The notes under the pieces: generated by a model | Told to the model about the DNA's origin: nothing | The model's input: the letters and a program-made list of their open reading frames with translations, nothing else | The model's database searches: none | Position numbers and translations under genes: made by a program | IMG/VR virus record: IMGVR_UViG_3300020178_000681 | Span: 1-22,927 of that record | DNA: 22,927 nt | Reading direction: 5' to 3' (one strand) | Source of the DNA: a virus | Part shown: positions 1,423 through 21,531 of the stretch, in pieces | Position numbering within the stretch: position 1 is the first letter of the stretch | Layout of the letters: each line of letters starts with the position of its first letter

Positions 1423-2131
1423 CTACCACCTGCGCTTTGAAAAAGTTAAAGAACCCTGTGAGTGTTAATCTTACATTCTCACCAGCATCCTTGTCTACCC
1501 TAGTTATACCATGTACTACGTTCTTGTTTATCAACACAAGTCTATTAGGTTTGGGTGCTACAAAATAGCCCATGCCGTGTTCAATCAACCCTTTTTGTTT
1601 TTCTGCTTGCTCAAACATTTCCAATGTGCCTGTATTACGATACGTATCTTGTTGTTTAGTACCTGGTAACTTGCGCATGATTTGTTTGTATTCTACACTG
1701 TCTTTGGGCAACACCAACAACATACTGTCCCAGTTGATTTGCCAATGTTTGTGCAAGTAATAACTGTAAGTTACCCCGCCCATGTCTGTATGCCACGGAT
1801 TTTTACTGCCTACAGGGTAACCATGACATCGCATAGCAATGTCTGTGTAGCCTGCTGTATAATCTTGAGCTTCTTCGCTGTCTGCAAATGTCTTTATAGC
1901 ATCTGCCCATATGTCGTAGTTGTCGTTAAATGGCGCATCTCGGAGAAAGCGTTTGCTGGCTTTGTAGTTTGCACCATCGGTAATATGCCAATATTTGTCG
2001 TCAGTCTGACTCTGTGTCCATTCGTCACACTGCACTTGATTGAACAATCTATCCCAACTCTCTTGTGGCAAGAAATCATCTACCACAAGCACTTCGGGTG
2101 TTTTCATTACAACTTTATACATATGTTTCAC
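1415..2131 (-). CDS. 2-oxoglutarate/Fe(II)-dependent oxygenase
   Basis: A 238-residue double-stranded beta-helix oxygenase. The iron ligands are visible as H114-T-D116 (WHTDMGG) and H207 (VVHGITR), and Arg221 in VRLTLTGFF is placed to bind the 2-oxoglutarate carboxylate. Family members use O2 and 2-oxoglutarate to hydroxylate amino acids, sugars or other small molecules; the substrate is unknown here. The GTG at 2131 is preferred because AGAAGG lies five bases upstream; ATG at 2122 and 2107 are alternatives. The gene starts 17 bases inside the end of the amidinotransferase gene and ends 8 bases into the aminotransferase-like gene, so the three are almost certainly one operon and probably one pathway. 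Confidence 0.85.
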   Translation of the reverse strand: MKHMYKVVMKTPEVLVVDDFLPQESWDRLFNQVQCDEWTQSQTDDKYWHITDGANYKASKRFLRDAPFNDNYDIWADAIKTFADSEEAQDYTAGYTDIAMRCHGYPVGSKNPWHTDMGGVTYSYYLHKHWQINWDSMLLVLPKDSVEYKQIMRKLPGTKQQDTYRNTGTLEMFEQAEKQKGLIEHGMGYFVAPKPNRLVLINKNVVHGITRVDKDAGENVRLTLTGFFNFFKAQVVDV

Positions 2132-3113
2132 ATTTGCCTTCTCTAGTTAAATCTAATGTTACACAATGCAATCCACCATCCCAAAAGAACTTGTGTCTAA
2201 AGTCAAAAGGAACCATTTCCACACCATGCTTTTTAAGTTGTGCTGCTACACCTGCATCGTATCCATTTGTAATAACCAACTCTGGCGATACACTAACAAC
2301 ATTAACATCAAATATAGTTTCGTCTACATGTCCAATCCAGCTGTCTAACCATGTTGCTACATTTTTAGCACGTAATGGTTGCATACTTGCTTGCCAAAAC
2401 TGTTCTGGAACGTTTTGCTTGGGTACTTGTATATAGTCCCAATGCTTGAGTTCGTCTGGTATCATTTCAGGTAACCAACACATAAGCAGCCCTGGTTTGA
2501 TTAATGCTATTTTGCCATCAGCATGTCCGCTTTCGTGTAGTTGTATCCATTTAGCATCTATTTCATTCTTCATCCAATCTAGCCCTGCATAGGTACCTCT
2601 ACCAAACTGCCTTGTCATTGGATAACTGGTATCGTTGTATGGTGCAGTGTGTATCAGTGTGTCTCCGCATTTGAGTATGTTAGCAGCGTGATACAGTGGA
2701 GTGCCTTCGTGTGCTACATAAGGTTGATAGAAACTTCCTAGCGTAGGAGTTGGCATAGCATTGTATTTTCTATCTAAACCAAATACGATATCGTTGTAGT
2801 GCTCACGCTCGTAAAACCTATTAGGATCTCCTCCTATAGTGCCTACAACCTGATCACCGTATACAACATGCATATCACGTGGACACACAGCAGGATAACG
2901 AAAGTCTCCTTTGTATTCACATTTTGGTCTGTGTACTTTTACATCATAACTTTCAAATAACTCAGTTAACTTTACAAAGTCTTCTTCTGATTCTTCAAAA
3001 ATACGTTGTAGTCCGTTGCGAAACTCTATATCTTCTATGTGTGCTATATCATTTGGATCGTATACACGCCCAACAATGATTTCTTTTAGGGGATCCCATT
3101 CTGTCCATATCAT
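2115..3113 (-). CDS. Amidinotransferase of the glycine amidinotransferase family
   Basis: A 332-residue protein with the family opening WTEWDPLKEIIVGR, the CPRD motif at 77-80, HAD at 197-199 and the catalytic cysteine in GGLHCVTLDL (Cys317). Known members move an amidino group from arginine to an amine, making guanidinoacetate or guanidino groups in natural products. The Asp of the usual FDAA(D/N) segment is replaced here: the equivalent reads YHAAN at 141-145, so the Asp of the Cys-His-Asp triad appears to be His142. The protein may be catalytically altered. The gene opens a three-gene minus-strand operon. No Shine-Dalgarno is visible before the ATG, and a late-promoter-like octamer sits where it would start the transcript at the ATG. 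Confidence 0.82.
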   Translation of the reverse strand: MIWTEWDPLKEIIVGRVYDPNDIAHIEDIEFRNGLQRIFEESEEDFVKLTELFESYDVKVHRPKCEYKGDFRYPAVCPRDMHVVYGDQVVGTIGGDPNRFYEREHYNDIVFGLDRKYNAMPTPTLGSFYQPYVAHEGTPLYHAANILKCGDTLIHTAPYNDTSYPMTRQFGRGTYAGLDWMKNEIDAKWIQLHESGHADGKIALIKPGLLMCWLPEMIPDELKHWDYIQVPKQNVPEQFWQASMQPLRAKNVATWLDSWIGHVDETIFDVNVVSVSPELVITNGYDAGVAAQLKKHGVEMVPFDFRHKFFWDGGLHCVTLDLTREGKCETYV

Positions 3114-3118
3114 AATAT

Positions 3119-3126
3119 TATTTACA
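3119..3126 (-). promoter_or_regulatory. T4-late-promoter-like octamer for the minus-strand operon
   Basis: On the minus strand the octamer TGTAAATA differs at one base from the T4 late promoter TATAAATA. It occupies -13 to -6 relative to the ATG at 3113, so initiation would fall on the start codon. With no ribosome site before that ATG, a leaderless late transcript is possible. A single one-mismatch octamer in AT-rich DNA is weak evidence. Confidence 0.3.
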
Positions 3127-3145
3127 AAAAACTTGCATTCAGTGG

Positions 3146-3174
3146 TTGACTTCTGGTAAATAGACTGCTATATT
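3146..3174 (+). promoter_or_regulatory. Sigma70-type promoter for the tRNA
   Basis: TTGACT (3146-3151) is a good -35 box and TATATT (3169-3174) a good -10 box, with 17 bases between. The start would be near 3181, about 40 bases before the tRNA. The same GGTTGAC, 16 bases, GCTATATT layout recurs before the DNA ligase gene, which strengthens both calls. Confidence 0.65.
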
Positions 3175-3180
3175 ATACAA

Positions 3181-3198
3181 GTAAGCAGAAACGCTTAC
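3181..3198 (+). repeat. 5'-end hairpin in the tRNA leader
   Basis: GTAAGC (3181-3186) and GCTTAC (3193-3198) are perfect inverted repeats around a six-base loop. The stem begins on the base predicted as the transcript start, so it could protect the 5' end or guide processing of the tRNA precursor. Confidence 0.4.
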
Positions 3199-3219
3199 AA
3201 CACCATTTGTTATTATAAA

Positions 3220-3309
3220 GGGCAGCTGGCTGAGTGGTCGAAAGCACCGGTCTACTAAACCGACGAGGGTGAAAGTCCTCCCAGGGTTCGAATCCCTGGC
3301 TGCCCGCCA
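3220..3309 (+). tRNA. tRNA-Ser, anticodon ACT (reads AGT/AGC)
   Basis: A 90-base cloverleaf with a long variable arm. The acceptor stem GGGCAGC (3220-3226) pairs with GCTGCCC (3299-3305), followed by discriminator G and an encoded CCA (3307-3309). The D arm is 3229-3245. The anticodon arm is 3247-3263 with loop CTACTAA and anticodon ACT at 3254-3256; its first pair is a C-A mismatch. The variable arm has the stem GAGG/CCTC, and the T arm has stem CAGGG/CCCTG around TTCGAAT. Long variable arm and G73 mark serine. The loop matches tRNA-Ser(GCT) except that position 34 is A instead of G, which is very unusual in bacteria and phages. The window uses AGT and AGC heavily for serine. Confidence 0.93.
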
Positions 3310-3329
3310 TAATAAAAGGATAGGATACA

Positions 3330-3557
3330 ATGTTTACAAATGAGTTTGATCACGACTTAACAACCATTACAATAATGGATGAAACAGGTGAACATAGTGA
3401 TTTGATTATTGATGCATTTGATGATATAGTATACATACGTCAGTACGACGAAGAATGGAATACTGATACTATACTTGAAATAACATCAGATATGTTCAAT
3501 GATTTAATCAATGCTATTCATTCAACAGAAGGGTCGTTTCGTACAGTTAATAAATAG
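3330..3557 (+). CDS. Small acidic protein, unknown function
   Basis: A 75-residue, strongly acidic protein that starts 20 bases after the tRNA, behind the purine-rich stretch AAAGGATAGGA that serves as ribosome site. The sequence alternates beta-type segments (TTITIMDETG, SDLIIDAFDDIVYIRQYD) with a C-terminal helix (SDMFNDLINAIHS). No cysteine, signal peptide or membrane segment is present. It is probably on the same transcript as the tRNA, since no terminator separates them. I do not recognise a family; size and acidity are typical of early phage proteins that bind a host factor, but that is only a guess. Confidence 0.6.
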   Translation: MFTNEFDHDLTTITIMDETGEHSDLIIDAFDDIVYIRQYDEEWNTDTILEITSDMFNDLINAIHSTEGSFRTVNK

Positions 3558-3561
3558 TGTT

Positions 3562-3723
3562 ATGTTTAAAGCAGTTAAAGAAACTATTTGGCATCTAACT
3601 TGTGTTAAGTGTAAAAACTGGTTCACATATGCAACCATGGAGGATAATATGTGTATTGACAGATATAACTTTCATTGTCCGCATTGTGGGTCAAAAGGAC
3701 GTTGTACAATAGATGACAAATAA
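3562..3723 (+). CDS. Zinc-ribbon mini-protein
   Basis: A 53-residue protein with two zinc knuckles, CVKC near residues 14-17 and CPHC near 39-42, spaced as in a single zinc ribbon. The ATG at 3562 is chosen because the frame upstream runs through the previous gene and the new start follows that gene's stop by four bases. No clear Shine-Dalgarno is visible. Such ribbons usually bind nucleic acid or serve as small protein adapters. The end overlaps the next gene by 11 bases, so it sits in the same operon. Confidence 0.65.
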   Translation: MFKAVKETIWHLTCVKCKNWFTYATMEDNMCIDRYNFHCPHCGSKGRCTIDDK

Positions 3724-6687: not shown

Positions 6688-7878
6688 ATGTACAAATGTT
6701 ATTTCCTATTGGACAATATTCTAGAATCTCCGTATGAGCCAATCTCTATAAAGTTGCCCGGATCAAGGCTTCATTCAATGCCGCTGGACTATCTACTAGG
6801 ACATTTTGACGATTTTAACTACAGAAACTTTTTTCATATAAGTCGAATAGAACTATTAGATACACAGACACCAAAGTTTATTGTTAATGTAATACATATG
6901 CCCAACTGGGTAGATACAAATCTATCAAAAGATGGTATTGATTTATTAAAAAATGATCCTAATGTTTATTTGTGCTTGATAACTACATTAGAAGGTGTAC
7001 TAGATACAAAGGCACTAGCAAATGAGTTAAACAGTAAAGAAATACCATTACACAAAGTTGTTGTTATGACTAGTAATATGCAGGCTCACGGAAATAAACT
7101 GGATGGTGTAAACTATATTTGTGTTAACTTTTGGGAAAGTATTACTAGGCTTCATCATCAGACGTTGCCCGATATTAGTGTAACTACACCTAAGCAACTT
7201 TCAATAAATACAGCAGAAAAAAAGTTTTTGTGTTTGAATAGGAATATAAAGCCTCATCGTATATGGCTAATGTACAGTCTATTGCGTAGTAATATAATCA
7301 ATGAAGGACATGTAAGTTTTAACCTTCCTAGTGTTGATCGTAGAGAATTTTATGTGTGTGCTAGATCGCATCATACACTAAAACGTATTCCAGAATCTCT
7401 CCACAGCGACTACAAAATGGCATTGGTTAGAGAAATGTATAATCGTAAACTAGACCCATTGCACAATCACCATGTAATAAACTATAACTCTAGTATCAAG
7501 TCTTACTACAATGACAGTTTGTTGAGTGTAATAACCGAAAGCGATACTAGTCTCAACTTTATTACAGAAAAAACTTACAAGGCTATAATGAATCTTCATC
7601 CGTTTTTTATTGTTGGCAACCCTGATCAACATGCATTACTTCGAGCTAGAGGCTATCATACTTTTGAAGATTTGTTTGGAGTTGATCAGATTACCAACTA
7701 TGCAGAAGCATCGAAAATGTGGAAACACATCGGTAGTAAAAATATAGATGTATTAAAACAAAACATCAAGAAAAAATATTTAGATAAATTAATACATAAC
7801 CAGCAGTTATTTCTTTCAAGGAAGATTAGTTGGAATGACATAACAGACAATCTTATAACAGCAATAGGTGATACTTGA
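6688..7878 (+). CDS. Glycosyltransferase-like protein
   Basis: A 396-residue protein. The C-terminal half carries SVITESDTSLNFITEKTYKA followed by HPFFIVG (about 280-310), the pattern of a GT-B nucleotide-sugar site in fucosyltransferase-like and related phage enzymes, where the EKT(Y/F)K segment contacts the donor. Before it, KKFLCLNRNIKPHR (178-191) is also common in this group. The N-terminal half is not recognised. No signal peptide is seen, so it should act in the cytoplasm. It heads the radical SAM operon, has no Shine-Dalgarno, and its stop overlaps the next gene by TTGA. The sugar donor and acceptor are unknown. Confidence 0.65.
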   Translation: MYKCYFLLDNILESPYEPISIKLPGSRLHSMPLDYLLGHFDDFNYRNFFHISRIELLDTQTPKFIVNVIHMPNWVDTNLSKDGIDLLKNDPNVYLCLITTLEGVLDTKALANELNSKEIPLHKVVVMTSNMQAHGNKLDGVNYICVNFWESITRLHHQTLPDISVTTPKQLSINTAEKKFLCLNRNIKPHRIWLMYSLLRSNIINEGHVSFNLPSVDRREFYVCARSHHTLKRIPESLHSDYKMALVREMYNRKLDPLHNHHVINYNSSIKSYYNDSLLSVITESDTSLNFITEKTYKAIMNLHPFFIVGNPDQHALLRARGYHTFEDLFGVDQITNYAEASKMWKHIGSKNIDVLKQNIKKKYLDKLIHNQQLFLSRKISWNDITDNLITAIGDT

Positions 7879-9086
7879 CCCAAGATTTTAAAAAACATTT
7901 TTGCATGGCGCCATGGACACACATGAGCGTATGGCAAAACGGTGATGCATATCCTTGTTGTATATACCACTGGGATATGCCTATTGGTAACATCAACGAA
8001 GCTGGGTTTAAAGGTGCATGGAACAGTGAAAAGATGCGTGACCTGCGTATGCGTATGTTGAATAATGAGCCAAGTGAAGGATGTAAAAAATGTATCAACT
8101 ATGACGCACAAGGTATTATTAGTTATAGACACAAGTTTAACACAGAGTATAACCATCACTTTAACTTAGTAGAAACAACCAGTGACGACGGCAGTGTTGA
8201 GCAAATGAATCTTGCATATTTTGATGTAAGGTTTAGCAATCTATGCAACATGAAATGTCGTAGTTGTGGTCCACATTTCAGCAGCAAGTGGGCAGAAGAC
8301 ATTTCTGGTAAGCCCGAAGTAGTAGAAATCAATCATCCAGAGATGTGGTCTGAGATTGAAGAAATGTTGCCCACTATCGAAGAAGTTTATTTTACTGGTG
8401 GCGAAAGCCTGTTTATGGAGCAGCATTACAGACTGCTGGATATGCTTATAGAGCGTGGACTCAAACCGAGATTAACATACAACAGCAATGCTAGTAGATT
8501 GAGCCTCAAAGGCAAACACATAAAAGACTATTGGCAGCACTTTGATAAAATATTCTTTTGTGTGAGTTGTGATCAAATCGGTGCCAAAGCAGAGTACACA
8601 CGCAATGGACAAAAGTGGAGTACAGTATTTGATAACTTGTGCTGGATACGTGATAACTTTGAACACAGCTATGACAAGGGTGTAGTTATACAACCAAATC
8701 CTACTATTAGTGTATTAAACATATTAGATTTGCGTAAGATTATCAACTTCCTGTTTGAACACAATATACCCACCGACTACGATATCAATCTCAGCAACTT
8801 GCTAGTTGGACCTGATTGGTTGAGTATAACAATACTTCCTGATCACATAAAACAACTGGCTAAAGAAAACATAATATTATTAAAAGAAGATATTGATAAG
8901 TTGAATATGTATCCACAACGCAAAGAGTTTTTGCACACAGGACTAGACAATATCATAAACTTCATGTATAGTAAAGATGACACACATTTGATTCCTGCAT
9001 TTAGGAATGAAATGCAAAAAATAGATTTAAAACGTGGTGAAAACTTTCTCAACGTATTTCCAGAACTAAAGGACTTGTATGTCTAA
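7875..9086 (+). CDS. Radical SAM protein with N-terminal twitch domain (copy 1)
   Basis: A 403-residue enzyme. An auxiliary Cys set comes first: C10, C28-C29, C70 and C73, with PIGNINEAGF and a WNS motif between. The radical SAM motif CNMKCRSC follows at 124-131 and binds the 4Fe-4S cluster that cleaves SAM; TGGES at 174-178 contacts SAM. The C-terminus ends in a shared signature (LKRGENFLNVFPEL). The start is TTG, forming TTGA with the upstream stop, with AGGTG five bases before. Its closest relative here is the next gene, which has the same layout and length, so they are tandem duplicates. The substrate is unknown. Of its 23 serines, 12 use AGT, 9 AGC and 2 TCT by my hand count. Confidence 0.88.
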   Translation: MTQDFKKHFCMAPWTHMSVWQNGDAYPCCIYHWDMPIGNINEAGFKGAWNSEKMRDLRMRMLNNEPSEGCKKCINYDAQGIISYRHKFNTEYNHHFNLVETTSDDGSVEQMNLAYFDVRFSNLCNMKCRSCGPHFSSKWAEDISGKPEVVEINHPEMWSEIEEMLPTIEEVYFTGGESLFMEQHYRLLDMLIERGLKPRLTYNSNASRLSLKGKHIKDYWQHFDKIFFCVSCDQIGAKAEYTRNGQKWSTVFDNLCWIRDNFEHSYDKGVVIQPNPTISVLNILDLRKIINFLFEHNIPTDYDINLSNLLVGPDWLSITILPDHIKQLAKENIILLKEDIDKLNMYPQRKEFLHTGLDNIINFMYSKDDTHLIPAFRNEMQKIDLKRGENFLNVFPELKDLYV

Positions 9087-10287
9087 ACAACTTAAAAACA
9101 GCAAACACTTTTGTATGATGCCTTGGGTGCATATGCATTTGTGGCCTGCTGGCACAACATATCCATGTTGTATGAGTGATCCAGAGTTTCCTATTGGAAA
9201 TACACAAGAGCAGAGTTTGCAAGAAATATGGAACGGCAAAGAACTACGCAATATACGTATGAACATGCTACAGGACAAGCCAAGCAAAGAATGTAGACGT
9301 TGCTACGAACTAGAAGAAAACGGCATGGGTACATTGCGTACCGGTAGTATTGGAAACTATGCACATCATTGGGACAAAGTTGAAGCAACTAGTGATGATG
9401 GTAGTGCAGGCGATGTTAACATGGCATATATGGACATACGCTTTAGTAATCTTTGCAATCTCAAATGTCGCAGTTGTGGTCCACAGTTTAGCAGCAGTTG
9501 GTTTGAAGATCACAAAGTAACACACGGCGACCCAGGACATCCTAAGATACTCCAAGTACGTGATGAAATGAAAAGTTTTATGGACGAGCTTGATCCGTTG
9601 TTGGAAAGTGTAGAACGTGTGTACTGGGCTGGCGGAGAACCTCTTATTACCAAAGAGCATTACAACATACTTGACAAATGGATTGCTATGGGCAAACGTG
9701 ATGTTAGTATGGATTATACTACAAACTTTACACAAATGTATTACAAAAAGAAAACAGCATTTGATTATTGGAATAAGTTTGAAAATGTTAGAGTAGCTGG
9801 TAGTTTAGATGCCAATCATGCTAGAGGTGAATACTTGCGTAAAAATATGGTGTGGAGTGAAGTTGTACAAAACAGACGCACAATGATAGAACAATGCCCA
9901 CATGTGTATTTTGAACTAACACCTACTGTGAGTGTGTACAACGTGCTTAACCTGCCTGACTTTCACAAGGAATGGATTGAAGAAGGATTGTTAGAGCCTT
10001 CTAATATACGTATCAACATATTGTTGGATCCTACATATATGCGTTTGAGTATATTGCCTCCGTGGATTAAATCTAAAGTTGCTGAAAGATATTCAGAACA
10101 TATTGCATACCTAAAGCAGTTTGATAATATTGCAGGTGTTATAAACGATTATGAAAGTATTTTAAACTTTATGGAAAAAGACCGCACAAACGAAATAAAA
10201 ATGTTTAAGTTTAAAACACAACGTATAGACACTCTAAGACAGGAAAACTTACTAGATGTATTTCCAGAACTAGAAGGTATTTGGTAA
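9079..10287 (+). CDS. Radical SAM protein with N-terminal twitch domain (copy 2)
   Basis: A 402-residue paralogue of the previous gene. The auxiliary cysteines are C12, C30-C31, C72 and C75; the radical SAM motif is CNLKCRSC at 126-133; AGGEP at 184-188 is the SAM-binding GGE motif. The segment around RFSNLC...RSCGP is nearly the same as copy 1, while the substrate-side C-terminal half differs more, which suggests related chemistry on a different substrate or step. The tail TLRQENLLDVFPELEG matches the tail of copy 1. The ATG lies 8 bases inside copy 1. The next gene starts on its last base. Confidence 0.88.
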   Translation: MSKQLKNSKHFCMMPWVHMHLWPAGTTYPCCMSDPEFPIGNTQEQSLQEIWNGKELRNIRMNMLQDKPSKECRRCYELEENGMGTLRTGSIGNYAHHWDKVEATSDDGSAGDVNMAYMDIRFSNLCNLKCRSCGPQFSSSWFEDHKVTHGDPGHPKILQVRDEMKSFMDELDPLLESVERVYWAGGEPLITKEHYNILDKWIAMGKRDVSMDYTTNFTQMYYKKKTAFDYWNKFENVRVAGSLDANHARGEYLRKNMVWSEVVQNRRTMIEQCPHVYFELTPTVSVYNVLNLPDFHKEWIEEGLLEPSNIRINILLDPTYMRLSILPPWIKSKVAERYSEHIAYLKQFDNIAGVINDYESILNFMEKDRTNEIKMFKFKTQRIDTLRQENLLDVFPELEGIW

Positions 10288-12455
10288 TGGGATTTTTTGA
10301 AAAAAGAGAAGTTGATCCAAACAGAGAAATACCCATAAAGCCAACGGGTACATTAGCCGAAGATAAACACACTGCTACACTTGCTGCTATTGCAAAGTAC
10401 AGCAAACCTGTACAAAAAGGTTTAGAAAATCTTGAAATAGAATACAAAGTTAATAGACAGACTAGACTGTGTATGTGTTTGTTGCCAGAATGGGATCCTA
10501 GTTTTCCACCTTACAATACAGCAAAACTTGCTAGTGCTGTAAAACGTGCAGGTTATGCTTGTAAAAGTTTTGATATAAATGTAGAAGCATACAATAGATT
10601 TCACAATGAAAAATGGCCTATTGATTTTGATCCTTGGGATCCACTACGTGACTGGCACTGGCTTGAAGAACATTATTACAAAGATATTCACCCACATCTA
10701 AAACCTATACTAGATGAAAAGATCGATGAGATAGTTGAGTTTGCACCAGATGTGGTTGGTTTTACACTGTACTATTGCAACGAAGCGCCTACAAAGTATG
10801 TAGCAGAACAACTGAAAAAGCGTATGCCAAATGTTCTAATCATGGTTGGCGGCCCTAGTACTCATGCTAGTTATTACAAGGGCGACGATTTATTTGATTA
10901 TGTAGTAAACGGCGAAGGTGAACAACCATTATTGCTTGCACTAGAAAGCATAGAAAAAAAGCAAGGTGTTCAATACAACGAAAAAGAAAAAAGTATGATT
11001 ATCCGGCAGCCTGAAAATCAGCGCTATAATCTAAGTACGTTGCCACTGCCTGACTACAGCGATTTTGACTTTAGCAAGTACAAGTTTCCAAATGGTGCAT
11101 TGTGTGAAATATCAAGAGGCTGTATTGCCAAGTGTACGTTCTGCGAAGAAACACACTTTTGGAAATATAGGCAGCGTAATGCACTTAGCACACTCAATGA
11201 GATTGAACATATGTACTATGAACATGGTACTAATGTATTTTGGTTTATTGATAGTTTGGTAAATGGTAATCTAAATGAACTGCGTGGATTTGTAAAAGGA
11301 GTTGCCGAAAAAGGACTAGAGATACATTGGACTGGTTATTGTAGATGTGATGGTAGAATGGATGCTGAATACTACAAAGATCTAAAAGCAGGCGGATGCG
11401 AAGTTCTTAACTATGGTATTGAAAGCGGCAGTCAAGTTGTACTAGATGCTATGGATAAAAAAGTTACTGTACCAGAAATGGAAGCCAACTTTAGAGATGG
11501 CTATGCAGCTGGCATTGATGCAATGACCAACTGGATTGTAGGCTATCCTAACGAAGGACATAAAGAACTTGAAGACACTCTTACTTTTATGTATAGAGTA
11601 CGCAATCAAGGACTTATTGCAATCAGTCAAGGTACAGGATTTAGTGTAGGTGTAGACACCATTGTAGGACAAAACTTTGACAAGTTTAATCTGTCACCGT
11701 TTTACTATTACGATCATTGGATTACAAAAGATTATAAAATGAGTATTGTACACAAACTCATACGTATGAAAACTTTTAGTATTTTTACAGACTTACTAAA
11801 AACAGAAAAAGTTTGCAGCAAGCCAACTCGTCCTAACTTGGCCAAGTTTCATTATGATATCAAGTTTGATAATCCTGATAACGAGTTTGATATTGAATAC
11901 GATTATGATGACTTTGATTATAATATTATCAAGCCAGGCATTAGTAACTTTGCTGATAGTTTGGTAAATGAGATCTGGCCATTTTTAAGAATAGTATGGC
12001 GCACAAAAGGTGCATATAAACTACATTTAAAGTTCCGCAAAGAATGGGAATATGAAGAATGGGGAGAGCGTAATGCTGCTCCATTGGATGCTGACTATAT
12101 ATTTGAAATAACAGATGATGGCAAATGGACTGCTGACTTTAAATGGAAATATCAACAAGACGAATACAGTGATTGGGAAGACAAGTACTGGATTGAAAAT
12201 GGTGCAATGCAAATGAGTCCAGATCCTTCGAGCCCTGTTTGGAGTATTATGGATTTCACCCGAGATAATAGCAATGCAGTTATTAGAGCACGTAAACTTG
12301 CATGGAAAGGTGATGCAGAGAAAAAGTCTAAAGATCCTTACAATGCTTATGATTTTAAAAAGTTTAAGCAAGACGAAAAAAACTTTATAAGTGTACGTAA
12401 TATAGACTTTAGTTTTGAATATGAATGGCAGGGCAAAGGAGACTGGAGTGAGTAA
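10287..12455 (+). CDS. B12-binding-type radical SAM enzyme with long C-terminal extension
   Basis: A 722-residue protein, the largest in the window. Residues about 60-225 look like a cobalamin-binding Rossmann domain: PPYNTAKLASAVKRAGY, DVVGFTLYYCNEAPT, LIMVGGPSTHASYY and VVNGEGEQPLLLALE. The classical DxHxxG cobalt-ligand motif is absent, as in several relatives. The radical SAM motif is CIAKCTFC at 279-286. Relatives do methylations, ring formations and other difficult C-C bond steps. The last 200 or so residues are rich in Asp, Glu, Trp, Tyr and Lys and I cannot place them in a known domain. ATG at 10287 (TAATG overlap with the previous stop) is chosen over an in-frame TTG at 10281. Confidence 0.85.
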   Translation: MGFFEKREVDPNREIPIKPTGTLAEDKHTATLAAIAKYSKPVQKGLENLEIEYKVNRQTRLCMCLLPEWDPSFPPYNTAKLASAVKRAGYACKSFDINVEAYNRFHNEKWPIDFDPWDPLRDWHWLEEHYYKDIHPHLKPILDEKIDEIVEFAPDVVGFTLYYCNEAPTKYVAEQLKKRMPNVLIMVGGPSTHASYYKGDDLFDYVVNGEGEQPLLLALESIEKKQGVQYNEKEKSMIIRQPENQRYNLSTLPLPDYSDFDFSKYKFPNGALCEISRGCIAKCTFCEETHFWKYRQRNALSTLNEIEHMYYEHGTNVFWFIDSLVNGNLNELRGFVKGVAEKGLEIHWTGYCRCDGRMDAEYYKDLKAGGCEVLNYGIESGSQVVLDAMDKKVTVPEMEANFRDGYAAGIDAMTNWIVGYPNEGHKELEDTLTFMYRVRNQGLIAISQGTGFSVGVDTIVGQNFDKFNLSPFYYYDHWITKDYKMSIVHKLIRMKTFSIFTDLLKTEKVCSKPTRPNLAKFHYDIKFDNPDNEFDIEYDYDDFDYNIIKPGISNFADSLVNEIWPFLRIVWRTKGAYKLHLKFRKEWEYEEWGERNAAPLDADYIFEITDDGKWTADFKWKYQQDEYSDWEDKYWIENGAMQMSPDPSSPVWSIMDFTRDNSNAVIRARKLAWKGDAEKKSKDPYNAYDFKKFKQDEKNFISVRNIDFSFEYEWQGKGDWSE

Positions 12456-13656
12456 TACATATTGCGTATACCCGTTTATAAACGTACACACTAACACCGA
12501 TGGTAGATGTAAACTATGCTGCCATGTGTACAGTGAAGACTATATTCAAGTAGATGGCAAAGATGCTGTACTAGGTAAAACTGACTGGTGGAACATTTGG
12601 AACGGGCAATACATGCTGGATGTTCGTGCAAAGATGCTGGCCGGTGGCAAAGTTAAAGAATGCAATCGCTGCTACGAACACGAAGAAAAAGGTTTAGAAA
12701 GCAGCAGACAATGGGCCAACAAAACATATCGTGCATCTGTAACACACGGCAACCCTACACACTTAGAACTACGATTAGGTAATCATTGTAACCTAAAGTG
12801 TAACAGTTGTTGGAGTGTGAGTAGTGATCAGATTTACAAAGAACGTAAGAAGATACTTGCTAAAGAGTCTGTACCTAAGTGGTTAGATGACCAATGGCAA
12901 CACGAGATTAAAAGTGTAGAGGAACACGATTGGGCATGGTACGAAACTCAGGAGTTTCGTGACTTTGTAGATCAAGTTGCACCTACATTAGAACGACTGT
13001 ACATGACAGGTGGTGAGCCTACACTGATACAAGCAAATCAGTATGTATTGGACAAACTAGTAGAAGCTGGTAATACAAAATGTCATGTAGCATGGACAAC
13101 CAATATGACTACATGGCCAGAAGGGTTTTATGACAAACTAGATTTTTTTGACACTAGTGAAATACAGATGAGCATTGACGGTTATGGTGATCATAACATG
13201 TACATACGCTATCCAACTGATTGGAACAAGGTAGAAGAAAACTTTGACAAAGCAATGAAGTTGCCTGAAAAAGTACAACTAAAGATTTACTTTGTGTATC
13301 AAGCATGGAATGTGTTTGATGTTGACAAACTAATACGTTGGCTAGAACAAAAGCAAACAAGGCGTGTGGACTTTGTTCCTATTTTCTTAGAACATCCTGA
13401 TCAACTGCACAGTTGTGTATGGCCTAGAGAACTACAGCATAATATCATTGGAAAACTAATGATGCTGGATACAAAGCTACACCAAGATGCTGTTCAAAGA
13501 ATCATTAACTACACACAGAATACTAATAAATATTCAGCAGAGAACCTCATGAGAATGAAACAGTTCATTAGTATCAATGATAGATATCGCAAGTATAAGT
13601 TTGCAGATATTTTTCCATTACTAAATGACATATTGGAAACAGAATGCAAGAAATAA
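12448..13656 (+). CDS. Radical SAM protein with N-terminal twitch domain (copy 3)
   Basis: A 402-residue enzyme of the same plan as copies 1 and 2: auxiliary C6, C21, C24-C25, C72 and C75, radical SAM CNLKCNSC at 114-121, and TGGEP at 187-191. It is more diverged, with an insertion rich in Trp, Glu and Asp between the cluster motif and GGE. A C-terminal tail (DRYRKYKFADIFPLL) is a weaker version of the shared signature. The start is GTG at 12448: AAGGAG lies six bases upstream and the start overlaps the previous stop by 8 bases. A longer reading from TTG at 12415 would add 11 residues inside the previous gene and has no ribosome site. Confidence 0.86.
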   Translation: MSNTYCVYPFINVHTNTDGRCKLCCHVYSEDYIQVDGKDAVLGKTDWWNIWNGQYMLDVRAKMLAGGKVKECNRCYEHEEKGLESSRQWANKTYRASVTHGNPTHLELRLGNHCNLKCNSCWSVSSDQIYKERKKILAKESVPKWLDDQWQHEIKSVEEHDWAWYETQEFRDFVDQVAPTLERLYMTGGEPTLIQANQYVLDKLVEAGNTKCHVAWTTNMTTWPEGFYDKLDFFDTSEIQMSIDGYGDHNMYIRYPTDWNKVEENFDKAMKLPEKVQLKIYFVYQAWNVFDVDKLIRWLEQKQTRRVDFVPIFLEHPDQLHSCVWPRELQHNIIGKLMMLDTKLHQDAVQRIINYTQNTNKYSAENLMRMKQFISINDRYRKYKFADIFPLLNDILETECKK

Positions 13657-14636
13657 AAGCTATTTTACCAGCTAAAGACAAATGGGTAAGCCTAGTATGG
13701 CAAGTCAACGATTGGTGCAACTTTCGTTGTACATATTGCAGCGAATGGAACTGGGCAGGACGTAATAAAAACGATACAGATATTCCGTTGATTGTTGATA
13801 CACTTGAGCGTATTATGTTACATTATAAAGCCAAAGGTTACAAGTATTTTAAACTGTATCTCAGCGGAGGCGAACCTACATTTTGGAAGGCACTTATTCC
13901 TGTTGTAGAAAAGTTTAGAGAACATGCTGAATGGCCTGGTAGTTGTGTAGGTATCAACACCAACTTTAGTAAGCCACTAAGCTGGTGGAAGGATCATCAT
14001 CACTTGTTCGAAGATGTTGTTGCTAGTTATCATGCAGAATGGAGCAAAGACGACAAGTACATGGATGTTTACAAGTTCTTACAAGATAAGAAAAACTATT
14101 TGTGTAGTCGTATTATGATGCATCACGATCATTTTGAACAGTGTATGGCATTTGGCGACAGAATAAAAAATGAGTGTGACAACTATATGATTGAGTATGC
14201 ACCAGTCTATGACGAGTTACGTCCTAGCACAGATCCGTATCATTATGACGAACCGTGGCAGATGGAGTTTTTTCAAACTAATAGTACAGTACAACAGCAG
14301 AGTATTCCTATAAAAAAAGATCCTAGTTATGCTTGGGCAAAAGTACAATACGAAGATGATACTATAGAACCTATTGATACAAACGGCATCATTACAAACG
14401 GTAAAAACTTCTTTAAAGGTTGGTTGTGCAATATACACGAAAGTTTGCACATTCATCCTAATGGTAAAATACAACAAGCAAGTTGTGGAGTAGGACCAGT
14501 TGTTGGAAATATTGTACAAGGCGAGTTTAATACTACAATGAGTGAAGGAGTGTGGTGTCCTAAATCACATTGTCATTGTGCAGCAGACTTTAATATTAGT
14601 AAAGCAAGGCCAGAATATGCAAAACAAATTAGATAA
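13644..14636 (+). CDS. Radical SAM protein with C-terminal SPASM-like cysteines
   Basis: A 330-residue enzyme with the ordinary domain order, unlike its neighbours. The radical SAM motif CNFRCTYC is near the start (25-32), SGGEPTF follows at 74-80, and a C-terminal set C262, C281, C305, C310 and C312 with HPNGK and GN.VQGEF segments looks like a SPASM or twitch auxiliary-cluster domain. SPASM enzymes often modify peptides or proteins, but some act on sugars or nucleotides. It lacks the C-terminal FPEL-type tail of the twitch copies. The ATG lies 13 bases inside the previous gene and the next gene starts 20 bases before its stop. Confidence 0.85.
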   Translation: MQEIKAILPAKDKWVSLVWQVNDWCNFRCTYCSEWNWAGRNKNDTDIPLIVDTLERIMLHYKAKGYKYFKLYLSGGEPTFWKALIPVVEKFREHAEWPGSCVGINTNFSKPLSWWKDHHHLFEDVVASYHAEWSKDDKYMDVYKFLQDKKNYLCSRIMMHHDHFEQCMAFGDRIKNECDNYMIEYAPVYDELRPSTDPYHYDEPWQMEFFQTNSTVQQQSIPIKKDPSYAWAKVQYEDDTIEPIDTNGIITNGKNFFKGWLCNIHESLHIHPNGKIQQASCGVGPVVGNIVQGEFNTTMSEGVWCPKSHCHCAADFNISKARPEYAKQIR

Positions 14637-15954
14637 ACTACCAAAAAACTTTTGTTACTTTAGTATGCAAGGATACAGCACACATTCGCATGGACGTACT
14701 AGACCATGTTGTTTTAGTAGAGTAGAAACTAATGCATACATGCCAGGTGTTGATGTAGATTCAGTTCCTTATTGGAAGGAACATCATAACTGGAATAGTC
14801 CTGATCTTGAAGATTTTATCAACGATCCAAAAGCCAAAGAAATACGCAAGCAACTACTAAATGACGAAGTTCCAGACGGATGTCGTAGTTGTTTCGAACT
14901 TGAAGATCAAGGCATACGCAGTTTTAGACAAACATGGAATGAAATATACGAAGATCAAATAGACACAACTTTAAAGCATGTTGATAATGAAGGACATTTA
15001 GATGCACAGGCTGTTACGTACTTGGATATCAGTTTGGGAAATATTTGTAACCTAAAGTGTAGAAGTTGCAATCCGTGGGCAAGTCATCGATGGATAGAAG
15101 AAGGACCTACAGTGCCACACACTGATTGGGATGACACAGCATATATGATTGCCAAAATGAGCAGTGACAAGCCTTGGTTTATTAAAGCATTTGCTGAAGG
15201 ATTTTTTGATGAAGTACTGCCTAATGTAAAAGTTATTAACTTTATAGGTGGCGAGCCATTAGTAGTCGAAGAACACTATGCTTGGTTAGAACACATAGTC
15301 GATCAAGGTTGGAGTAAGGATATTGAGCTCCATTATAATACTAATGGTACAACTATACCCGATAGACTATTAGCTATCTGGGATAAGTTTAAAGGTGTTA
15401 TATTAAGTTTGAGTATAGATGCTATAGGTGATCTTGCATACTATGTTAGACATCCTACCAAATGGAAAATAATAGAAAAGAATACAAAAAAACTAGCAGA
15501 GTTTAGTCGCACACGCAAAGGTGTTCTTGTGCATACACACGTTACACTTAGTTTGCTAAACTTGCATGACTTGCCCAACTTGTTGGATTGGTGCAAACAC
15601 CAATATGATACGTGGCACTATGAATGGGATTGGGGCAACTATGGTTATCAAAACTGTCTGCCGCATTTTAACATTGTAGATTTTCCACGTCACTTGAATA
15701 TACGAAACTTACCCGAAGATCGCAAAGTGTTGATGAACAAAATGTTGGAAGAGCAACATCTCAAATACAAAAATGCCAAGTTGCCGGATTGGGAGCAGTG
15801 GGCAGTTGAAAACATTATCAACTTAAAAAATATTCTAAATCAGCCACAAGATGAAACAGACTGGAAACACTTTATTGATAATACCAATGCTAGTGACAAG
15901 TTTAGAAAACTCGATATTGTTGAATATATTCCGTGGATGGAGAAATATTTTTGA
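14617..15954 (+). CDS. Radical SAM protein with N-terminal twitch domain (copy 4)
   Basis: A 445-residue enzyme. Auxiliary cysteines are C13, C31-C32, C89 and C92; the radical SAM motif is CNLKCRSC at 144-151; GGEP is at 211-214 in INFIGGEPLVVEEH. The ATG at 14617 is preferred because it follows an AAGG site and gives the conserved opening of the family (LPKNFCYFS, as HFCMAPW in copy 1); an in-frame GTG/ATG region further up would only add residues inside the previous gene. It is longer than the other copies because of inserts before and after the GGE motif. The tail KFRKLDIVEYIPWMEKYF again resembles the shared C-terminal signature. The stop overlaps the next start by TTGA. Confidence 0.87.
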   Translation: MQNKLDKLPKNFCYFSMQGYSTHSHGRTRPCCFSRVETNAYMPGVDVDSVPYWKEHHNWNSPDLEDFINDPKAKEIRKQLLNDEVPDGCRSCFELEDQGIRSFRQTWNEIYEDQIDTTLKHVDNEGHLDAQAVTYLDISLGNICNLKCRSCNPWASHRWIEEGPTVPHTDWDDTAYMIAKMSSDKPWFIKAFAEGFFDEVLPNVKVINFIGGEPLVVEEHYAWLEHIVDQGWSKDIELHYNTNGTTIPDRLLAIWDKFKGVILSLSIDAIGDLAYYVRHPTKWKIIEKNTKKLAEFSRTRKGVLVHTHVTLSLLNLHDLPNLLDWCKHQYDTWHYEWDWGNYGYQNCLPHFNIVDFPRHLNIRNLPEDRKVLMNKMLEEQHLKYKNAKLPDWEQWAVENIINLKNILNQPQDETDWKHFIDNTNASDKFRKLDIVEYIPWMEKYF

Positions 15955-21000: not shown

Positions 21001-21531
21001 ATGAAAACTAATCTAACTCAAAAACAACTAGATCAACTTGCAGAGCTTATCACATTCAGTGAGAACGAAGACGGAACTTTGTTTATTAAAGACATCAAAG
21101 GCACTGTCTATGGTGATATCTACGGCAATGTTAAAGGCAATGTTGAAGGTGACGTAGGCGGTTATGTTGGAGGTGATGTCAACGGTGATGTCCACAATAA
21201 TGTCTTAGGTGATATTGTAGGTGATGTCAAAGGCAATGTCGAGGGTGATGTCAAAGGCACTGTCGGAGGTAGTGTCTGTGGTGATGTCGAAGGTGATATC
21301 TATGGTAATGTCAACGGAAATGTCCACGATAATGTCTTAGGTGATATTGTAGGTTATGTTGGAGGTGATGTTGAAGGTATTATCTTTGGCAATGTCGAGG
21401 GTGATGTTAGAGGCAATGTCGGAGGTAGTGTCTACGGTGATGTTTTATGCAACGTCAAAGGTAATGTTTGGGGTGATGTAAAAGGTAATGTCGAAGGTAT
21501 TGTCTGTGGTAATGTTAAAGGAGAAACATAA
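21001..21531 (+). CDS. Protein made of 35 GxVx tetrapeptide repeats
   Basis: A 176-residue protein. The first 33 residues are a small non-repeat head (LTQKQLDQLAELITF, then GTLFIKDI). From residue 34 to 173 there are 35 consecutive four-residue units of the form G-(D/N/T/S/Y)-(V/I)-x, broken only by three units that start with N, D or C. Such a pattern should form a narrow beta-solenoid or stacked beta structure, with the Val/Ile inside and Gly at turns. A longer period of 44 residues is also visible (HNNVLGDIVG and HDNVLGDIVG). GGTGGAG precedes the ATG. Possible roles are a fibre, a scaffold or a DNA mimic; sequence alone does not decide. Confidence 0.7.
   Translation: MKTNLTQKQLDQLAELITFSENEDGTLFIKDIKGTVYGDIYGNVKGNVEGDVGGYVGGDVNGDVHNNVLGDIVGDVKGNVEGDVKGTVGGSVCGDVEGDIYGNVNGNVHDNVLGDIVGYVGGDVEGIIFGNVEGDVRGNVGGSVYGDVLCNVKGNVWGDVKGNVEGIVCGNVKGET
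21100..21519 (+). repeat. 12-base tandem repeats with a 132-base higher period
   Basis: Thirty-five in-frame 12-base units of GGTGATGTC type encode the tetrapeptides. The block TCCACAATAATGTCTTAGGT at 21191 recurs 132 bases later at 21323 with one change, showing duplication of an 11-unit segment. Copy number could change by slippage or recombination without shifting the frame. Confidence 0.85.

Follow-up and report, generated by a model that had tools for sequence, protein, structure and literature searches.

A serine tRNA gene with the anticodon ACT is present in a phage sequence, and tRNAs of this kind are recurrent in phages and rare in cellular genomes. The gene lies at 3220-3309 on the plus strand of a 22,927-nt window of IMG/VR virus record IMGVR_UViG_3300020178_000681 (G000), which makes it a phage tRNA. 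According to a passage in a 2021 review, tRNAs with A34 in the split serine/arginine box are universally missing, and the tRNAs absent from bacteria are absent from phages too (PMC8007984). The phage sequences described here, including those of Salmonella phage Munch and Xanthomonas phage XaC1, contradict this rule. The explanation that we favour, and hold to be somewhat better than evenly supported, is that the gene encodes an accessory tRNA-Ser(ACU), mobile among phages, whose unmodified A34 would read AGU and aid AGU-rich genes. The broader claim that A34 is not forbidden in this box, given a mobile phage tRNA whose arm differs from the one in tRNA-Ser(GCU) and would let unmodified A34 read AGU alone, seems to us evenly balanced. 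The parts of the tRNA are as follows.

3220..3309, plus strand: tRNA-Ser(ACT) gene with encoded CCA (ARAGORN; Rfam RF00005, 53.4 bits)
3247..3251, plus strand: 5' strand of the anticodon stem, CCGGT, positions 27-31, with G30 and U31 of the tRNA-Ser(TGA) type (sequence, class comparison)
3252..3258, plus strand: anticodon loop CTACTAA (sequence)
3254..3256, plus strand: anticodon ACT, A34 being base 3254 (ARAGORN, sequence)
3259..3263, plus strand: 3' strand of the anticodon stem, ACCGA (sequence)
3264..3281, plus strand: long variable arm of 18 nt, type II as in tRNA-Ser (sequence, manual position count)
3306..3309, plus strand: discriminator G73 and encoded CCA (sequence)

ARAGORN returned a single tRNA in the window, tRNA-Ser(act), the RF00005 covariance model matched 3220-3306 above its gathering cut-off of 29 bits, and bases 3254-3256 read ACT, confirming an earlier note on this DNA that had called a tRNA-Ser with this anticodon and loop. 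The 18 nt between the anticodon stem and the T stem form the long variable arm typical of tRNA-Ser, and the anticodon is not the GCT of tRNA-Ser(GCU). The pattern GGNCNACTAAACCG matches the window at one place, with 0.01 matches expected by chance. Pair 27-43 is a non-standard C-A, which also carries a mismatch mark in the Rfam alignment. When the tRNA was folded alone as RNA, the minimum-free-energy structure (z -1.61) kept the acceptor, variable and T stems and lost the usual anticodon arm; the support for the cloverleaf therefore comes from ARAGORN and the covariance model. A minus-strand open reading frame (ORF) entry at 3139-3330 overlaps the tRNA and is probably not a gene.

The frequency of ACT tRNAs was compared between viral and cellular DNA by pattern scans; those of viral DNA demand an exact T-arm stretch, and their counts cover the matches listed and are no census. 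At least 118 IMG/VR loci carry the ACT pattern, and among the matches listed 110 of 118 are tRNA-Ser(act) by ARAGORN, which made no ACT call in the other 8. At least 65 distinct ACT sequences were found over the 253 loci analysed, in which L105 and L125 are on duplicate contigs of L002 and L001. A joint ACT/GCT scan gave 12 ACT and 68 GCT tRNAs among the 80 rows listed out of 119, the two classes being assigned through the loci of separate ACT and GCT scans; about one in seven such viral serine tRNAs among the matches listed is thus ACT. Among prokaryotes, 34 stretches matched the ACT pattern in 84,980 species genomes, and 13 of them, in 11 genomes, are tRNA-Ser(act). The joint pattern matched 117 of 150 Pseudomonadota genomes in a set centred on a genome (G001) itself picked for its ACT tRNA, and outside that genome all matches listed were GCT. 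Six carriers (G001, G002 and G008-G011), which are Polynucleobacter or beta-proteobacterial, also share one pattern match that resembles tRNA-Ser(GCT). The ACT tRNA is accessory in Polynucleobacter, where 3 of 61 genomes, one of them the centre genome, show its pattern. In two Polynucleobacter loci (L256 and L281), it shares its stretch with a phage integrase, or with a recombinase and a ParB-like gene, a gene context consistent with mobile elements. Two Patescibacteria metagenome-assembled genomes have a LAGLIDADG-domain ORF between tRNA-Ser(GCT) and tRNA-Ser(ACT) (L265, 3185-4389; L268, 5999-7181). Other rare A34 tRNAs also occur in L016-L133, namely Leu(aag) (8), Asp(atc) (3), Asn(att) (2), Thr(agt) (2), Tyr(ata) (1) and Phe(aaa) (1).

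Relatives of the virus were sought through the flanking ORF at 2118-3113 (minus strand), which yielded 15 loci. Nine of these (L001-L009) are close relatives, with flanking-ORF protein identities of 82-100%: L001-L003 carry the ACT tRNA, L004, L005, L006, L008 and L009 carry a GCT tRNA, and in L007 no AGY serine tRNA was found. A set of relatives carrying only GCT, the outcome that the earlier note had named as fatal to its claim, is therefore not what is seen. In L010-L015, at 28-31% identity, no tRNA was found. The window's ACT tRNA is identical to those of L001, L002 and L003. The first of these is nearly the same virus, its record covering 22,701 of the 22,927 window bases (mean 96.9%), and in the other two the tRNA lies inside a ten-tRNA array. 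A read error at base 3254 was rejected, because three relatives share the identical tRNA and its anticodon stem also differs from that of tRNA-Ser(GCT). In G170 (locus L066) only 419 window bases align, and 3203-3315 matches at 97.3% identity; because this phage is otherwise unrelated, the tRNA has most likely moved between phages. A close-similarity search of the window against named phages gave no match. Among the named-phage neighbours of the window tRNA, the first eight regions held no ACT and mostly TGA, and two of six further regions held ACT.

The ACT tRNAs also have a remodelled inner anticodon stem, a feature that the earlier note overlooked, as it did the recurrence of ACT in phages. 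Position 30 is a purine in 63 of 65 ACT, 9 of 88 GCT and 118 of 119 TGA tRNAs, stem counts that omit tRNAs which the parser failed to cut; grouped by distinct acceptor sequence, 36 of 38 ACT groups have a purine-30 majority, versus 4 of 51 GCT groups. The combination C30-G40 and C31-G39 is found in 63 of 88 GCT and in none of 65 ACT tRNAs, and the window tRNA, with G-C and U-A at these pairs, lacks this stem of the GCU class. Its own combination, G30-C40 and U31-A39, is present in 104 of 119 TGA and 40 of 65 ACT tRNAs, and its exact stem was found in two TGA tRNAs. Regions other than the inner stem separate the ACT tRNAs weakly or not at all, and with the anticodon arm removed 61 of 77 ACT tRNAs come closest to GCT, in a set that held 38 TGA versus 98 GCT. 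The ACT tRNAs may have arisen from tRNA-Ser(TGA) through an anticodon swap; the inner stem is the one part in which nearly all of them resemble TGA tRNAs. On an unrooted tree of 169 tRNAs without the anticodon arm there are at least 23 anticodon changes, a count that has no label-shuffle baseline and in which gain and loss are indistinguishable; the same tree holds only 5 independent pairs on branches with support (median p 0.125 by sign test). In the same loci, C30-G40 likewise tends to go with G34 in Gly, Thr and Val tRNAs, whereas this is not so in Asn, Cys, Tyr and Phe tRNAs, and because the latter break the trend, a coupling between the stem and base 34 is only a suggestion.

The coding sequence of the window is rich in AGY serine codons. 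In 27 ORFs, a hand-picked list that may include a few non-genes, AGT accounts for 204 and AGC for 70 of the 360 serine codons, and in ORF 7875-9086 the counts are 12 and 9 of 23 serines, exactly as the earlier note had given them. Its proposal that the tRNA is matched to AGY-rich coding stands as to this richness and not as to AGC, since an unmodified A34 would be expected to read AGU and not AGC. ACT and GCT loci differ in median AGT/(AGT+AGC) (0.696 vs 0.633), and regression on composition leaves the ACT loci with a lower AGA share of arginine codons. The first contrast between the two classes covered 89 of 110 ACT and 88 of 109 GCT loci, each with at least 1000 codons. As an initial clustering put 127 of 188 loci in one group, it was replaced by a relatedness-controlled version with 94 ACT and 94 GCT loci of at least 800 codons, in which ACT loci also holding GCT were left out.

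Several results weigh against an AGU-decoding role. After related contigs were collapsed, the AGT excess was +0.036 (p 0.095, 95 points), so the codon match loses significance across phages; within the largest group, the excess was +0.006 (p 0.83) and +0.025 (p 0.64); and the decoding test published for E. coli (PMC11066159) used another tRNA body. Under relatedness control, no AGT, AGA or AGG measure reached p 0.05, and AGA avoidance was rejected as the regression effect was lost (p 0.39, 0.72 and 0.70). In some of three settings, the CGT share of arginine codons gave p 0.047 and the CGC share p 0.021 and 0.033, and the Phe control box gave p 0.041, among many tests with uncorrected p values. 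In the window's own family, AGT/(AGT+AGC) was set against T/(T+C) of six other boxes: the first minus the second comes to 0.034 to 0.092 for five ACT records, -0.068 to 0.020 for five GCT records and 0.027 for the record with neither; these differences were taken by hand, and among the ACT records G161 is almost the same virus as the window and G170 is otherwise unrelated. The AGA share of arginine codons in this family is 0.284-0.378 in the five ACT versus 0.372-0.419 in the five GCT records. The direction of the AGT difference in this family fits an AGU role, with few independent lineages behind it. The codon role of the ACT tRNA is thus putative, because no AGT, AGA or AGG signal survives relatedness control.

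According to the favoured explanation, the host seryl-tRNA synthetase would charge the tRNA, given its long variable arm and G73, A34 would stay adenosine, AGU would be read by a Watson-Crick pair with AGC left to the host tRNA-Ser(GCU), and translation of AGU-rich phage genes would be sped up; the G30-C40/U31-A39 stem could adapt the arm to a non-G wobble base. If the host instead turned A34 to inosine, both AGU and AGC would be read and AGA would be at risk, an alternative that appears improbable. The results and Table 1 of PMC11066159, in which ACU stands on two rows and the Arg CGU row evidently means ACG, report inosine in only 3 of 15 A34 tRNAs in E. coli and none detected for an orthogonal ACU tRNA, whose loop equals that of tRNA-Arg2 and which read AGU at 9.4% and AGG at 0.36%, with AGC and AGA below detection. 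TadA is described in passages of PMC12255301 as needing UACG, with some edited mRNA sites one base off. The window tRNA has U33 A34 C35 U36, lacking this G. At aligned AGA codons in relatives, arginine occupies 85.8% of 401 cells and serine 1.0%, much as at the CGT codons used for comparison (85.7% of 440 cells and 0.5%), and a reassignment of AGA to serine was rejected as aligned AGA stays arginine. Its equality to the tRNA-Arg2 loop gives the loop of the tested E. coli tRNA the same seven bases as that of the window. PF14437 and PF00383, the deaminase families searched for a phage TadA, matched none of 11 phage records, all possibly fragments. A34 is thus probably left unmodified, in agreement with the earlier note. 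That a loose, unmodified A34 reads all AGN codons and places low levels of serine at arginine codons is very doubtful. In vitro, a glycine tRNA with A34 was a competitor at GGA and GGG as well (Boren 1993, cited through PMC11066159), and the AGA share is lower in ACT loci by regression and in the window's family; this difference, however, is not significant after relatedness control, and the ACU tRNA in E. coli hardly read AGG and did not detectably read AGA.

Two further alternatives concern selection rather than base 34 chemistry. A34 and the altered inner stem may spare the tRNA from a host enzyme that cuts tRNA-Ser(GCU), so that AGY reading survives. The change does sit in the anticodon arm, and altered anticodon loops of phage tRNAs have been proposed as an escape from tRNA-targeting defences in a passage of PMC10264068, but the same source names tRNA-Ser(gct) as the untargeted serine tRNA in its phage; we regard such evasion as unlikely. 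It is likewise a minor prospect that the tRNA has no selected decoding role and hitchhikes on mobile phage tRNA arrays, as its presence in otherwise unrelated phages and the weak codon signal would allow, since at least 65 distinct sequences remain intact with a consistent inner stem.

Other features of the window include one upstream of the tRNA.

3146..3174, plus strand: candidate promoter-like site, TTGACT-17-TATATT with TG (consensus scan)

The consensus scan of 3000-3600 on both strands gave 7 such sites, versus 2.7 expected. Radical SAM or SPASM proteins are encoded in a row over 7875-15954 of this phage DNA, one of them with a B12-binding domain, and 21001-21531 is an ORF of 176 aa consisting largely of GDV/GNV repeats, with no Pfam match.

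Among known tRNAs, tRNA-Ser(GCU) shares the amino acid, the long variable arm and the codon box with the window tRNA, and differs in having G34 and usually C30-G40/C31-G39 in place of A34 and G30-C40/U31-A39. The inner stem of tRNA-Ser(UGA) is like that of the window tRNA, whereas its anticodon differs, and the remaining body of the window tRNA is not clearly of either class. tRNA-Arg(ACG), read as ICG, shares A34 and C35 and is a TadA substrate with G36, where the window tRNA has U36; its loop differs from the window's by one base. Table 1 of PMC4810235 lists a tRNA-Ser ACU for the green alga virus ATCV-1, a chlorella virus, a likeness in anticodon drawn from the listing alone. Our literature search found no study of a phage tRNA-Ser(ACU), although annotation tables and supplements may hold earlier sightings; term searches found no passage on an ACU anticodon in PMC6409571, which PMC8007984 cites, and no ACU anticodon in PMC13015707 or PMC11273794.

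Decoding by A34 has been little studied owing to the scarcity of unmodified A34 tRNAs. If the broader claim on A34 is true, phage tRNA-Ser(ACU) would be a natural source of such tRNAs, and natural ACT tRNAs make it testable why cells exclude A34.
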